From contig CAKZKD010000021.1 of the NCBI GenBank assembly GCA_937121175.1, forward strand, positions 1 to 33,999: a stretch of DNA of 33,999 bases. The letters run 5' to 3'. Under the pieces are notes generated by a model, which searched no databases, was not told the origin of the DNA, and saw only the letters and a program-made list of their open reading frames with translations. The number at the start of each line of letters is the position of its first letter. Positions within the stretch are counted from its first letter, which is position 1. Positions 6,192 to 11,558 of this stretch are shown here, piece after piece. The DNA is from an uncultured Flavobacteriales bacterium. Lineage in GTDB: Bacteria; Bacteroidota; Bacteroidia; Flavobacteriales_G; Salibacteraceae. The translations under genes and the position numbers were made by a program.

Positions 6192-7133
6192 TTACGACTT
6201 AATAAGTAACACATTCATAAAATATTTTCTGGAGTCATTAAACTCCCTGATAATCCTCAAACCTGAGCCTTCGATTACTTTATCTAAAATTTGTAAATCG
6301 TATTTTCTAGAAATTTCAGTGTGAATGGGTTCCCCTTCTTCAAAATGGAACGTTTTAGAGATTTTACCTATGTTCACCTTTTGCTTTTTTGAACTGACCA
6401 AAGCACTCGATGCAATTCCTGATTCCTCGTCGTATTTTGGAACATGTTGGAAAGAGGCAACATCGAAGTCCCCATCCAATTCTTTGTTGATGCGAGACAA
6501 CAAATTCAAGTTAAAATCTCTGGTATATCCTTGTTTGTCATTATACGCAGGAAGCACAACGTCCACAGATTTTATTTTATCCAAGCCCAGCAGCAATTTG
6601 TCTCCAGATTGCATACTTTGAGCGAGTTGTCCCATGAATTCTTTAGCCACATCATCGTACATATTCCCAAGGTTTGAGCCTAAAAACAATATGACTTTGT
6701 TGGTAGCATTATCGACACTCAAACTATCCAAAACCTGAAAATATTCGCCTTGTAGCGGCTTCGCCTCTATTTCAGGAAGCTCATTGTGTAATCGGACTTT
6801 TAAATTATCCAACGCGTTCTGAGAAATATCAATTGGGTGATAAACAAATTCGTTCGAATTCATTGATTTCAGCAACTCAATGGTTTTTGTACCATCACCT
6901 GCGCCCAATTCGTAAAGCGCCATTTTGGAGACATCTTCGGTTAAAGCTCTAACAATTTCTGTGGTTTGTTCTGAGAAAATTTCAAACTCAGCATCAGTCA
7001 AATAGTATTCTGGCATGTTCATGATGTTCACAAACAGCTGATCGCCTATTTCATCGTAAAACCATTTCGAAGAAAGGTACTTTGGTTTTGCAGAGAGTCC
7101 TTCTTTTACTTCTCTGGCAAATTCTTCATTCAT
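6192..7133 (-). CDS. egtD: L-histidine N-alpha-methyltransferase (EgtD)
   Basis: A 313-residue SAM-dependent methyltransferase that converts histidine to hercynine, the first committed step of ergothioneine synthesis, in the cytoplasm. The EgtD N-terminal signature is present (SSKWFYDEIGDQLF then MPEYYLTDAE, residues 21 to 49), followed by the SAM-binding loop ELGAGDGTKT (75 to 84) and FLGSNLGN. Length is typical (~320 aa). Its ATG overlaps the egtB stop as ATGA (7130-7133), so the two are translationally coupled. No egtA, egtC or egtE is seen in the window. Confidence in the family is high; the product assignment follows from the egtB pairing. Confidence 0.93.
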   Translation of the reverse strand: MNEEFAREVKEGLSAKPKYLSSKWFYDEIGDQLFVNIMNMPEYYLTDAEFEIFSEQTTEIVRALTEDVSKMALYELGAGDGTKTIELLKSMNSNEFVYHPIDISQNALDNLKVRLHNELPEIEAKPLQGEYFQVLDSLSVDNATNKVILFLGSNLGNMYDDVAKEFMGQLAQSMQSGDKLLLGLDKIKSVDVVLPAYNDKQGYTRDFNLNLLSRINKELDGDFDVASFQHVPKYDEESGIASSALVSSKKQKVNIGKISKTFHFEEGEPIHTEISRKYDLQILDKVIEGSGLRIIREFNDSRKYFMNVLLIKS

Positions 7134-8302
7134 AATTGCTGTTTTTTTGCCAATCGTATTCCACTAAATTGCCATTGAAAATGTGGGTGAAAGAAGTTTC
7201 TATATGTTTTTCTAGAATGCTTTGGTGCTGTAGCTACCGAAGCACCGCGCAATACCATCTGGTTCATCATAAATTTACCGTTGTACTCGCCTACTGCGCC
7301 TTCAGGCTTATCGAAACCAGGGTAGGGCAAGTAATTTGAAGCCGTCCATTCCCAACGTTTTCCCCATTTGAAATTATCGGAAGCTACCTCCCATTCAAAT
7401 TCTGTTGGCAAACGCATGCCTTTCCATTCCGCAAAGGCAGCTGCTTCGTAATAACTTATGTGACTGAGAATTTCGTTTGGATTTACTTTTTGATAGCCAG
7501 CAAGGGTATAGTTGTTCCATTCACCGTTTTGATTGAACCAATACATCGGACACGACAGGTTTTCTTTTTGAATCCAAGACCAGCCTTCATCTAACCAATA
7601 CTCGAAGTTGGAATAACCTCCAGCATCAATAAATTCTATAAACTCACCATTTGCAACTAGATGATTCGAAACTTCAAAATCGTGCAAAAAGACTTGATGC
7701 TTCGCTAATTCGTTATCGTAACAGAATTCGCTTCCATCATATCCAATTGAATAAATTCCTTCAGGGATTTTAATCCAATTTTGGTCTCCTTCATTGGTAG
7801 AAGAAACCCTTGCCGTTCCGTCATAACTTGGAAAAAGTGGATTATTCCCAAGCACATATTTTAGATCAGTCAACAATAACTCTTGATGCTGTTGTTCGTG
7901 ATTGATGCCCAATTCGATTATTTCAAACTGTTCTGGAGTTAATGTATGAGTTTCAAGATAAACGCAAACTCTTTCAGTAACCGATTTCCGGTAATCCAAC
8001 ACCTCTTCTACCAAGGGCCGAGTTAAGTTGCCTCTGTTAGCCCTCAACACTCTATCACCTATTGTATTGTAATAGCTATTGAACAAAAAGGCAAAATCTT
8101 CATTGTGCCATTTATAATCTGCTTTATTTTCAACGAGAAAAAACTGCTCAAAAAACCAAGTAGTGTGACCTAAATGCCACTTTGGTGGGCTAACCCATTC
8201 AACGGGCTGCGATTCAAAATCGCCTGGAGTTAATGGCTCAACTATTTTTTCAGTGTAAGAGCGCGTTGCCTTAAATCGCTCTAGTAATTCTTTTGTATTC
8301 AC
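7130..8302 (-). CDS. egtB: ergothioneine biosynthesis sulfoxide synthase EgtB
   Basis: A 390-residue non-haem iron enzyme that joins hercynine to a sulfur donor (cysteine or gamma-glutamylcysteine) with oxygen to give the sulfoxide precursor of ergothioneine. Residues 1 to ~155 are a DinB_2 helical bundle carrying the iron ligands H46 (in PKWHLGHTTWF) and H135/H139 (in GINHEQQHQELLL). Residues ~165 to 390 are the formylglycine-generating-enzyme-like (FGE-sulfatase) domain ending YRNFFHPHFQWQFSGIRLAKK. Length suits an EgtB. The gene opens the minus-strand operon; its start is an ATG at 8302 with a 179-nt upstream gap. Absence of egtA/egtC nearby leaves the sulfur donor open; a cysteine-using EgtB is possible. 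An ovothiol OvoA is less likely because OvoA is a longer fusion protein. Confidence 0.93.
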   Translation of the reverse strand: MNTKELLERFKATRSYTEKIVEPLTPGDFESQPVEWVSPPKWHLGHTTWFFEQFFLVENKADYKWHNEDFAFLFNSYYNTIGDRVLRANRGNLTRPLVEEVLDYRKSVTERVCVYLETHTLTPEQFEIIELGINHEQQHQELLLTDLKYVLGNNPLFPSYDGTARVSSTNEGDQNWIKIPEGIYSIGYDGSEFCYDNELAKHQVFLHDFEVSNHLVANGEFIEFIDAGGYSNFEYWLDEGWSWIQKENLSCPMYWFNQNGEWNNYTLAGYQKVNPNEILSHISYYEAAAFAEWKGMRLPTEFEWEVASDNFKWGKRWEWTASNYLPYPGFDKPEGAVGEYNGKFMMNQMVLRGASVATAPKHSRKTYRNFFHPHFQWQFSGIRLAKKQQL

Positions 8303-9474: not shown

Positions 9475-10704
9475 CTATTCCTTTAATATCAATGTGTTTT
9501 GATGTGATGTGGACAAAATATAAATCCCATCAGGGAGGGCCCCCAAATCAAGTCGCTTACTTTTTCCTAATTCCCCTTTTAACCAACATTTACCATTCAA
9601 ATCAAGAATGGAAAATTTAGTTTCCTGTTCAAAATCCTCTATAATTATAAATCGCATGGTCGGATTAGGATAAACCAATAGTGGCTTTATCCCGATTCTA
9701 CTTGTTATATCGGTCTTTACAGTATCATTATCTTCTATGTTCTTTTTTTCGGGAGGAGCAACAAATGCGTACTCATTTATAGGTATATATTCAGTTTTGG
9801 TTCCTTTTTGAGTACGCATATTCAAATAGCAAATTTCAATTGCTGCACTATCAATCACATTGGCAGTTGTCAGTAACAAACCGTAACGCTCACCTGGATA
9901 AACGTCAATTGTGTTTGTTACAATATCGGCTGGAATTTTCCTGCCATCAGAGCCAATTATTTTACAGTTAATTTCGTTCGGAATTGTCAATCTATTGATG
10001 GAGTACGTTGCATTAACTACCCTCAACAAACAAGTATCTCCTGGCTTTAAGGAGAGTACTTCATTAGAATCTCGGTAAATTTGCCCATGGGTTTTTCCAT
10101 TGACCAGAATATAATCTAATCGCATATCTCTTAAATCAATTCCGGTTATATCCATTGCATGATATCGCCGGTCAAATTCGGAGAGAAACAATAAATGTTC
10201 ATTATTGAATTTACCGTAATTATTGTAAGTTGAGTTACCGTTTTTTACAATCAGCGCTCCATACATACCCATCTGAAAGTGCAATGGTGTTGTAACATGG
10301 CAATGGTACATAAACGTTCCTGCCTTAGTCGCTATGAATTCGTAGCTAGCTGTATCTCCTGTCAAAACAAAAAAGCTTGTACTCGGTACGCCATCATTTC
10401 TCTGATCAACGTCTAATCCGTGTAAATGTATGGTGTGACCTTCGGGACTCGGGTTATAAAACTCAATAACCACGGTATCACCTAAATTAACTTCTACTAA
10501 AGGCCCTGGAACGTCGTGTTGTTTGTCAATCTCAGTGTTGAAATAACCAAATGTCCAGTTCAACATAGAATCCGGCTGACCATTAGCATCTTCTAGCACA
10601 CCAATAGTGTTCATTGTTGCAGAAAAGCTGAACACTTTTTTTTGAGCAAACACTTGATTTACTCCAAAAACCGCAAAGAGAACTATGATTTTATAAAAAT
10701 TCAA
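9475..10704 (-). CDS. secreted multicopper oxidase-like protein with T9SS sorting domain
   Basis: A 409-residue protein with a signal peptide (MNFYKIIVLFAVFGVNQVFA). The first cupredoxin domain (~25 to 155) carries EGHTIHLHG (H90, H93, H95) and YHCHVTTPLHFQMGM (H134, C135, H136, H142, M147): a full type 1 copper set plus two HxH pairs for a type 2/3 centre. A second cupredoxin-like domain (~160 to 310) has no copper residues I can see. Residues ~335 to 409 are a T9SS type A sorting domain (PLLVYPNPTMRFIIIE ... LPDGIYILS). There is no third copper-bearing domain, so alone it lacks half of a trinuclear site. It starts 5 nt after the 278-residue cupredoxin gene, which carries the complementary histidines. 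Substrate is unknown; exported to the surface or medium by T9SS. Confidence 0.88.
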   Translation of the reverse strand: MNFYKIIVLFAVFGVNQVFAQKKVFSFSATMNTIGVLEDANGQPDSMLNWTFGYFNTEIDKQHDVPGPLVEVNLGDTVVIEFYNPSPEGHTIHLHGLDVDQRNDGVPSTSFFVLTGDTASYEFIATKAGTFMYHCHVTTPLHFQMGMYGALIVKNGNSTYNNYGKFNNEHLLFLSEFDRRYHAMDITGIDLRDMRLDYILVNGKTHGQIYRDSNEVLSLKPGDTCLLRVVNATYSINRLTIPNEINCKIIGSDGRKIPADIVTNTIDVYPGERYGLLLTTANVIDSAAIEICYLNMRTQKGTKTEYIPINEYAFVAPPEKKNIEDNDTVKTDITSRIGIKPLLVYPNPTMRFIIIEDFEQETKFSILDLNGKCWLKGELGKSKRLDLGALPDGIYILSTSHQNTLILKE

Positions 10705-10709
10705 TAGAA

Positions 10710-11546
10710 TTAATTTGAAACATCTAACATGGTGATCATCCCACCTGGATAATTTCCTTCAACCGTTACACTACCCATGTAATGGTCGTGAACTGGATAT
10801 TTACCGGGTTTATCTGGAATCAGTCTTATAAAACAATATCGATCTTTCTGAACCGGAAAAGTATCTTTAGACCATCCAGTTTGATTAGGATTCGAATCTG
10901 ATTCAGTTATTAAAACGTGATAACCGTGAACGTGCATACTGTGTGGCATATAGCCTGCATTAAAAATCAGAATATCCACCGTATCTCCAACCTTACAGTT
11001 GACTTTCGTTTTTACATCCTGCATAGTTTGGGGATATATAAAGCCATTGATAGAAAACCGCTCTGGAAAATAGTCCGTATTAGATAATTTATCATCCAAA
11101 AATGCTTTTGCATAATCCATATCAAGTTCCTTAATTCGCCATACGAAATCTACTTTTACACCTACCAACAGTAATCCTTTCACTCCTGATTGAGCTTCAA
11201 TTCCGTTCTTCAACTGATAACGATAAACACCTTTTGTTAAAGATGGAATCTCAATTGTTTTTGATGCACCTGTTTTTAAAAGTTCACTTAAGATTAAATC
11301 ATCAGTTTTATATATCTGAAAAGTCAAATTCCTTTGGAAAGAATTGGAAATAATCAGTTGATTAGCTTGGTTTTCACTTATTGAAATAACTGCATTGGAA
11401 CTATCAAAAATTGAACTTTGATTAAGTCTTAATATGTCAATGGTTGCCTGTTTTTCGGTTATGGTGCCTTTGTTTAGAAAAAAACTCTGAGCAAATGATA
11501 ATTCAGCGTGCAATACAATAGCCAGTAATAGGGCAAAAAATCTCAT
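10710..11546 (-). CDS. secreted cupredoxin-domain protein, likely partner of the adjacent multicopper oxidase
   Basis: A 278-residue protein with a signal peptide (MRFFALLLAIVLHAELSFAQ). Residues ~30 to 130 are beta-rich without metal residues. Residues ~150 to 275 form a multicopper-oxidase-type cupredoxin domain with HSMHVHG (H202, H205, H207) and KYPVHDHYMGSV (H253, H255), followed by NYPGGMITMLDV. The cysteine that binds type 1 copper in HCH motifs is replaced by Asp254, so it offers trinuclear-type histidines but no blue copper. It is the promoter-proximal gene of the operon and its stop is 5 nt from the next start. It lacks a T9SS tail, so it would stay in the periplasm unless carried by its partner. 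A lone degenerate oxidase is the alternative. Confidence 0.8.
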   Translation of the reverse strand: MRFFALLLAIVLHAELSFAQSFFLNKGTITEKQATIDILRLNQSSIFDSSNAVISISENQANQLIISNSFQRNLTFQIYKTDDLILSELLKTGASKTIEIPSLTKGVYRYQLKNGIEAQSGVKGLLLVGVKVDFVWRIKELDMDYAKAFLDDKLSNTDYFPERFSINGFIYPQTMQDVKTKVNCKVGDTVDILIFNAGYMPHSMHVHGYHVLITESDSNPNQTGWSKDTFPVQKDRYCFIRLIPDKPGKYPVHDHYMGSVTVEGNYPGGMITMLDVSN

Positions 11547-11550
11547 TGCT

Positions 11551-11558
11551 CAAAGATA
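11551..11558 (-). promoter_or_regulatory. -7 element for the cupredoxin operon
   Basis: On the minus strand TATCTTTG matches TAnnTTTG exactly. Only 4 nt (AGCA) separate it from the ATG at 11546, which predicts a leaderless or nearly leaderless transcript. No -33 TTTG at usual spacing. Confidence 0.6.

Follow-up and report, generated by a model that had tools for sequence, protein, structure and literature searches.

A putative two-domain multicopper oxidase of Bacteroidota with its copper ligands divided between two paralogous proteins

Two adjacent genes of an uncultured Flavobacteriales bacterium, here called A and B, probably encode the two different subunits, each indispensable, of a single secreted multicopper oxidase (MCO) of the type C two-domain class (2dMCO); copper loading and activity are inferred. 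The genes lie in the window, by which we mean the whole stretch of 33,999 nucleotides that was analysed. A preliminary description, made from the DNA letters alone, had proposed that each protein brings two HxH pairs into a single trinuclear centre. This core claim is supported: we infer a shared centre because the ligands are invariant, the genes strictly co-occur and adjoin, both proteins share ancestry with 2dMCOs, and a structural model of good confidence sets domain 2 of A beside domain 1 of B. The description had missed that A and B each hold a second, copper-less MCO-type domain, and its single oxidase cut in half is here refined to two paralogous two-domain proteins with complementary losses.

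Results

Two secreted proteins with complementary copper ligands

The features of the two genes are as follows (window positions, all on the reverse strand).

11551..11558, reverse strand: TATCTTTG, Bacteroidota -7-like box, 4 nt before the ATG of A; consensus match only
10710..11546, reverse strand: gene A, 278 aa, secreted, ATG start; signal peptide, vestigial cupredoxin domain 1 and putatively copper-bearing domain 2
11490..11546, reverse strand: signal peptide of A, residues 1-19; limits judged by eye from the sequence
11157..11489, reverse strand: A domain 1, residues 20-130; cupredoxin fold with ligands lost (PF13473, hhalign to B domain 1 with E 4.5e-8, AlphaFold2 model)
10713..11156, reverse strand: A domain 2, residues 131-278; half of the proposed trinuclear centre, equivalent to 2dMCO domain 2 (2zwn residues 166-274), PF07731
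10917..10943, reverse strand: A HSMHVHGYH, residues 202-210; H205 and H207 invariant (81/81)
10782..10790, reverse strand: A HDH, residues 253-255; both histidines invariant (81/81)
10705..10709, reverse strand: gap of 5 nt between the A stop and the B TTG; relatives mostly have a 4-nt overlap instead
9475..10704, reverse strand: gene B, 409 aa, secreted, TTG start; signal peptide, domain 1, domain 2 and type IX secretion (T9SS) tail
10231..10641, reverse strand: B domain 1, residues 22-158; equivalent to type C 2dMCO domain 1 (3g5w, 2zwn), PF07732
10417..10437, reverse strand: B HTIHLHG, residues 90-96; H90 type 1, H93 and H95 trinuclear (78/78)
10264..10305, reverse strand: B HCHVTTPLHFQMGM, residues 134-147; H134 and H136 trinuclear, C135, H142 and M147 type 1 (78/78)
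9769..10203, reverse strand: B domain 2, residues 168-312; equivalent to 2dMCO domain 2 with HxH pairs lost (hhalign to A domain 2, E 1.5e-15)
9478..9675, reverse strand: C-terminal T9SS sorting tail of B (PF18962, TIGR04183)

The preliminary description had given A as a 278-residue protein with HSMHVHG and VHDH and without a type 1 cysteine, and B as a 409-residue protein 5 nt downstream with HTIHLHG and a complete type 1 set. Both statements held, the reading frames, coordinates and residues of A and B being confirmed. The motifs of A read H202-S-M-H205-V-H207-G-Y-H210 and V-H253-D-H255, and no type 1 cysteine was found at the corresponding position of the window sequence. Those of B read H90-T-I-H93-L-H95-G and H134-C135-H136-VTTPL-H142-FQMG-M147, amounting to four trinuclear-type histidines and a full His/Cys/His/Met type 1 set. 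Pfam recognizes PF07731 (7.6e-12) and PF13473 in A, and PF07732 (8e-21), PF00394 and the T9SS tail PF18962 (2.8e-8) in B.

By the criteria of a sorting domain and a signal peptide, B is T9SS cargo: PF18962 and TIGR04183 both score above cut-off on the window protein, and its N-terminus was judged by eye to be a signal peptide. The tail recurs in 20 of 21 relatives of B by Pfam (PF18962) and in nearly all by motif; it is absent from A (0/18 by Pfam, 0/81 by motif). The earlier claim that only one partner is tailed therefore held. That the tail could carry both proteins to the surface remains merely plausible, as export is inferred and there are no secretion data.

The sequence is consistent with the proposed near-leaderless promoter. 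The TATCTTTG box would fit a leaderless Bacteroidota promoter for A, a possibility that rests on this single consensus match. Across the whole window TAnnTTTG is rarer than in shuffled sequence (26 copies vs 43 expected), with several copies immediately 5' of window genes, as if the promoter box were shunned elsewhere.

The copper ligands are invariant

Scanning 84,980 species genomes returned 161 relatives of A, and 80 of their loci were retrieved. Nearly all came from Bacteroidota MAGs, the named strains being Lishizhenia tianjinensis and Brumimicrobium oceani; the hosts of the A-B family are mostly marine Bacteroidota. With the window added, these loci supplied 81 A and 78 B sequences. Residues H205, H207, H253 and H255 of A (81/81) and H90, H93, H95, H134, C135, H136, H142 and M147 of B (78/78) never vary, while the counterpart stretches in the dead domains of the same sequences are variable. 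Such invariance over 81 A and 78 B sequences means that the copper motifs cannot be put down to chance. The second trinuclear pair of A is HDH or HNH throughout (81/81); H210, K227, D228 and G269 are likewise kept in all 81, and H202, at the one-time type 1 position, in 79. Every B sequence (78/78) satisfies the criterion of a type 1 site with its cysteine between trinuclear histidines (HCH). Eight trinuclear histidines, in four HxH pairs from two cupredoxin domains, are complete only when A and B are combined.

In the dead domain 1 of A, a lone histidine near the former HTIHxHG position is present in 68 of the 81 proteins; at residue 74 (window 11325-11327, reverse strand) the A of the window has leucine.

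One rival reading takes B for a relative of copper nitrite reductase and A for a regulator or degraded paralogue. In its favour, NirK is among the fold neighbours (Z ~25) and TIGR02376 weakly matches B. However, that match falls far short of the cut-off (56 vs 296 bits), and the trinuclear pattern is invariant, with HCH and HxH in B and HxH and H[DN]H in A. NirK carries only one type 2 copper, and its type 1 cysteine is not followed by a second histidine. We rejected a NirK identity, as HCH together with full HxH pairs contradicts a single type 2 copper site; this reading is all but ruled out.

A second rival makes A a copper donor or chaperone for B, comparable to the caddie protein of tyrosinase, with B alone acting as a type 1 electron-transfer protein or a partial-site copper protein. 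The genes are adjacent and always paired, and the four histidines of A could carry copper. A copper-less B-like protein also lies near a tyrosinase-like gene in some Flavobacterium-like genomes, so relatives may aid the maturation of copper proteins. Against this, A keeps an entire trinuclear half-site with 2dMCO spacing (HxH and HDH/HNH, 81/81), and B keeps the other half without second-domain ligands, which alone would leave it only four of the eight trinuclear histidines of an MCO. We regard a donor role as very unlikely.

A and B occur strictly together

Genome calls among 199 relatives used thresholds of E < 1e-25 for the full form of A and E < 1e-39 for strong B. A was present in 22 of these genomes, and the identical 22 carry B adjoining A; neither was found alone in any of the 199. 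The next-best B-like match (2.6e-18) was a longer oxidase of ~500 aa. Within the order of the window organism, A occurs in 20 of 42 genomes and B in exactly those 20.

In 77 of the 80 retrieved loci A is followed by B on the same strand. Two of the remaining three (L070 and L096) are contig ends, and the third (L087) is a broken locus, possibly a misassembly, with A disrupted and no recognizable B. Of these 77 loci, 76 have a B start between -8 and +4 nt from the A stop, 54 of them with a 4-nt overlap; in the exception (L131) the start of B is hidden under a run of N. The pairwise distance matrices of A and B mirror one another (r 0.89; best of 1000 permutations 0.12).

The preliminary description had proposed searching genomes for the pair and for fused versions. 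The pair was strictly together, and the sole fusion proved to be a frameshift. This apparent natural A-B fusion, a single ORF of 689-692 aa in genome G011 (L021 1477-3546), was rejected, since the frame of A continues into B only owing to a single additional G, within a run of eight G towards the end of A, and the signal peptide of B is still inside the ORF. A sequencing error and a phase-variable tract could not be distinguished at this run. Single-chain 2dMCO-like matches in two other genomes (G531, G267) are ordinary unsplit relatives with both domains active, and B-like matches in Flavobacterium-like genomes lack the copper ligands; neither kind belongs to the pair. A lone homologue with a full copper set in a homo-oligomer, which had been named as a refuting case, was not found.

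These data bear on a third rival, in which A and B form separate homo-oligomers with metal at half-sites and unrelated roles. Their 2dMCO relatives are homotrimeric (PMC3192119, PMC13151041), and the ring contact could in principle form as A-A or B-B. However, either such contact gives only four histidines, no genome among the 199 relatives has just one of the two genes, and the distance matrices are mirrored. This rival, too, is very unlikely.

No other PF07732/PF07731 MCO that might serve as partner was found in the window's own genome. A third, weak PF07731 match there is an azurin-like secreted protein of 174 aa (L166 1471-1995, reverse strand, contig C1), a possible electron partner of a copper oxidase in the periplasm or at the surface.

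A strongly conserved neighbourhood beyond the A-B pair was not found in the 80 loci. A small secreted protein with a WxxSxCxxxxC-like motif lies 5' of A in ~21 of them (for example L103 3051-3773 and L081 248-916, both forward strand, and ~20 further loci); it is not next to the window pair.

A and B are paralogues with opposite losses

Profiles were built from 18 relatives of A and 21 of B. The best solved matches of both were the type C 2dMCOs 2zwn and 3g5w, collinear across both domains, and the two profiles align with each other through both domains (hhalign, E 2.5e-23). By domain, the strongest hhalign match joins the two second domains (1.5e-15), followed by A domain 2 with B domain 1 (2.4e-9) and the two first domains (4.5e-8); A domain 1 and B domain 2 reach only 3.6e-3.

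In the A-B alignment, HxH and HCH of B domain 1 stand opposite non-ligand residues in A domain 1, and HSMHVHG of A domain 2 stands opposite YSINRLTIP in B domain 2. The losses are thus opposite: A is without domain 1 ligands and has kept the trinuclear histidines of domain 2, and B is without domain 2 ligands and has kept the trinuclear histidines of domain 1 together with the type 1 site. The simplest history, and the one we consider likely, is that a two-domain oxidase was duplicated and the copies then underwent complementary losses. Fission of a longer, four-domain ancestor is a possible alternative that is not excluded.

A structural model places the two half-sites side by side

AlphaFold2 was run on the pair of a relative (L110, Crocinitomicaceae MAG SAT141), not on the window proteins, which are ~29% (A) and ~31% (B) identical to their L110 counterparts. 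In L110, B follows in frame 3 nt after A; the A stop was read through, with the signal peptide of B as linker. This read-through chain is a modelling device and no real protein. With an alignment of 53 rows, the A-B chain was predicted with a mean pLDDT of 88.3 and a pTM of 0.84.

VIA-align superposed 504 residues (22-602, spanning both proteins) on residues 1-699 of human ceruloplasmin, with an rmsd of 3.8 Å and Z 27.3. The order A domain 1, A domain 2, B domain 1, B domain 2 corresponds to ceruloplasmin domains 1-4, given the domain limits of ceruloplasmin. The model sets A domain 2 beside B domain 1, as in the ceruloplasmin order; joining of the chains could favour such a placement. Ceruloplasmin has its trinuclear site at the contact of domains 6 and 1. 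The model predicts that the contact of A domain 2 with B domain 1 is of the type that holds the trinuclear site in ceruloplasmin and between 2dMCO subunits (PMC13151041). Convergence of the eight histidines is accordingly a likely prediction, made by analogy and backed by equivalence of contacts, not by measured distances. As for the heterodimer prediction that had been proposed as a check, A domain 2 adjoins B domain 1 in the L110 model, an arrangement that is not incompatible with a shared site.

Discussion

The preferred reading remains that A and B are partners in one enzyme. Because each protein supplies four histidines, the trinuclear cluster could form only at the contact between A domain 2 and B domain 1. 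In the proposed mechanism an ancestral two-domain MCO gene would have duplicated and the copies lost complementary copper sites, the A-B contact replacing the contact between identical subunits of homotrimeric relatives. The type 1 copper of B domain 1 would take up electrons from the substrate and hand them through HCH to a trinuclear cluster whose ligands are four histidines from each of B domain 1 and A domain 2; this cluster would reduce O2 to water, an activity that is inferred. Assembly of A with B in the periplasm before export, and surface display via the T9SS tail of B, are likewise inferred.

Together A and B have four domains, two thirds of the usual six-domain ring. The stoichiometry may be 1:1, or a third subunit may complete the six-domain ring. 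Any ring of three subunits drawn from A and B has at least one mismatched contact, which counts against the preferred reading. A bolder reading holds that these Bacteroidota copper oxidases are, as an entire family, obligate hetero-oligomers that arose from a homomeric two-domain enzyme by duplication and loss of opposite active-site halves, and that the T9SS-tailed subunit exports a pre-assembled, copper-loaded partner across the outer membrane; on balance we lean slightly against it.

Two-domain oxidases have been described as homotrimeric, with a trinuclear site between identical subunits (PMC3192119, PMC13151041). The type C 2dMCOs, mgLAC (2zwn) and the blue copper oxidase of Nitrosomonas europaea (3g5w), match A and B best in sequence and rank among the closest in fold. 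They share with them two cupredoxin domains and a type 1 copper in domain 1 only, as in B; A is two-domain but lacks a type 1 site. In these oxidases domain 1 of each subunit meets domain 2 of its neighbour to form the trinuclear centre, the arrangement that we propose for A-B. Unlike these homotrimers, in which every chain has both half-sites, A and B divide the half-sites between two paralogous chains with one dead domain each.

The predicted A-B chain resembles ceruloplasmin in superposing on four consecutive domains. Ceruloplasmin also retains a trinuclear site at just one of its like contacts, as proposed for A-B. In contrast to ceruloplasmin and coagulation factors V and VIII, six-domain rings from a single gene, A-B has four domains encoded by two genes; the two chains of factors V and VIII result from proteolysis. 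The MnxEFG manganese oxidase (PMC5622069) and fungal heterodimeric novel laccases (PMC10741624) resemble A-B in being MCOs with partner subunits, but the partners there are accessory proteins unlike MCOs, or a small protein, and in both systems the oxidase subunit is by its ligands a complete MCO.

The open-access literature searched, which leaves most subscription journals out of scope, yielded no description of a multicopper oxidase that is split, heteromeric or heterodimeric. If confirmed, A-B would be the first MCO in that literature with a trinuclear cluster built from two different gene products, and a clean natural example of a homomer becoming an obligate heteromer through complementary loss. 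As of 2011 the Bacteroidetes seemingly had no two-domain oxidases (PMC3192119); the pair adds two-domain MCO relatives to this phylum, and could show whether T9SS is able to export a partner without the signal. Otherwise annotators would take A for a defective oxidase and B for a solitary laccase.

Further observations

The copper-less homologue of B was seen in four Flavobacterium-like genomes (G243, G353, G381 and G422), where HTIHLHG is replaced by PVSLYCKEI and HCH is lost. It lies two genes from a tyrosinase-like gene (L150 4333-5274, reverse-strand reading; L151 3755-4696, forward strand), and may be an MCO relative recruited as helper of the tyrosinase-like enzyme. Between it and the tyrosinase-like gene, L151 4576-5142 (forward strand) encodes a relative of the small secreted WxxSxCxxxxC-like protein (E 1e-14).

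The window also carries, on the reverse strand, an EgtD-like histidine methyltransferase (6192-7133; PF10017, with TIGR03438 at 283 bits, just below the cut-off of 291) and EgtB (7130-8302; TIGR03440 at 514 bits, above cut-off). The two genes overlap by 4 nt and form an ergothioneine-type pair in a Bacteroidota genome.
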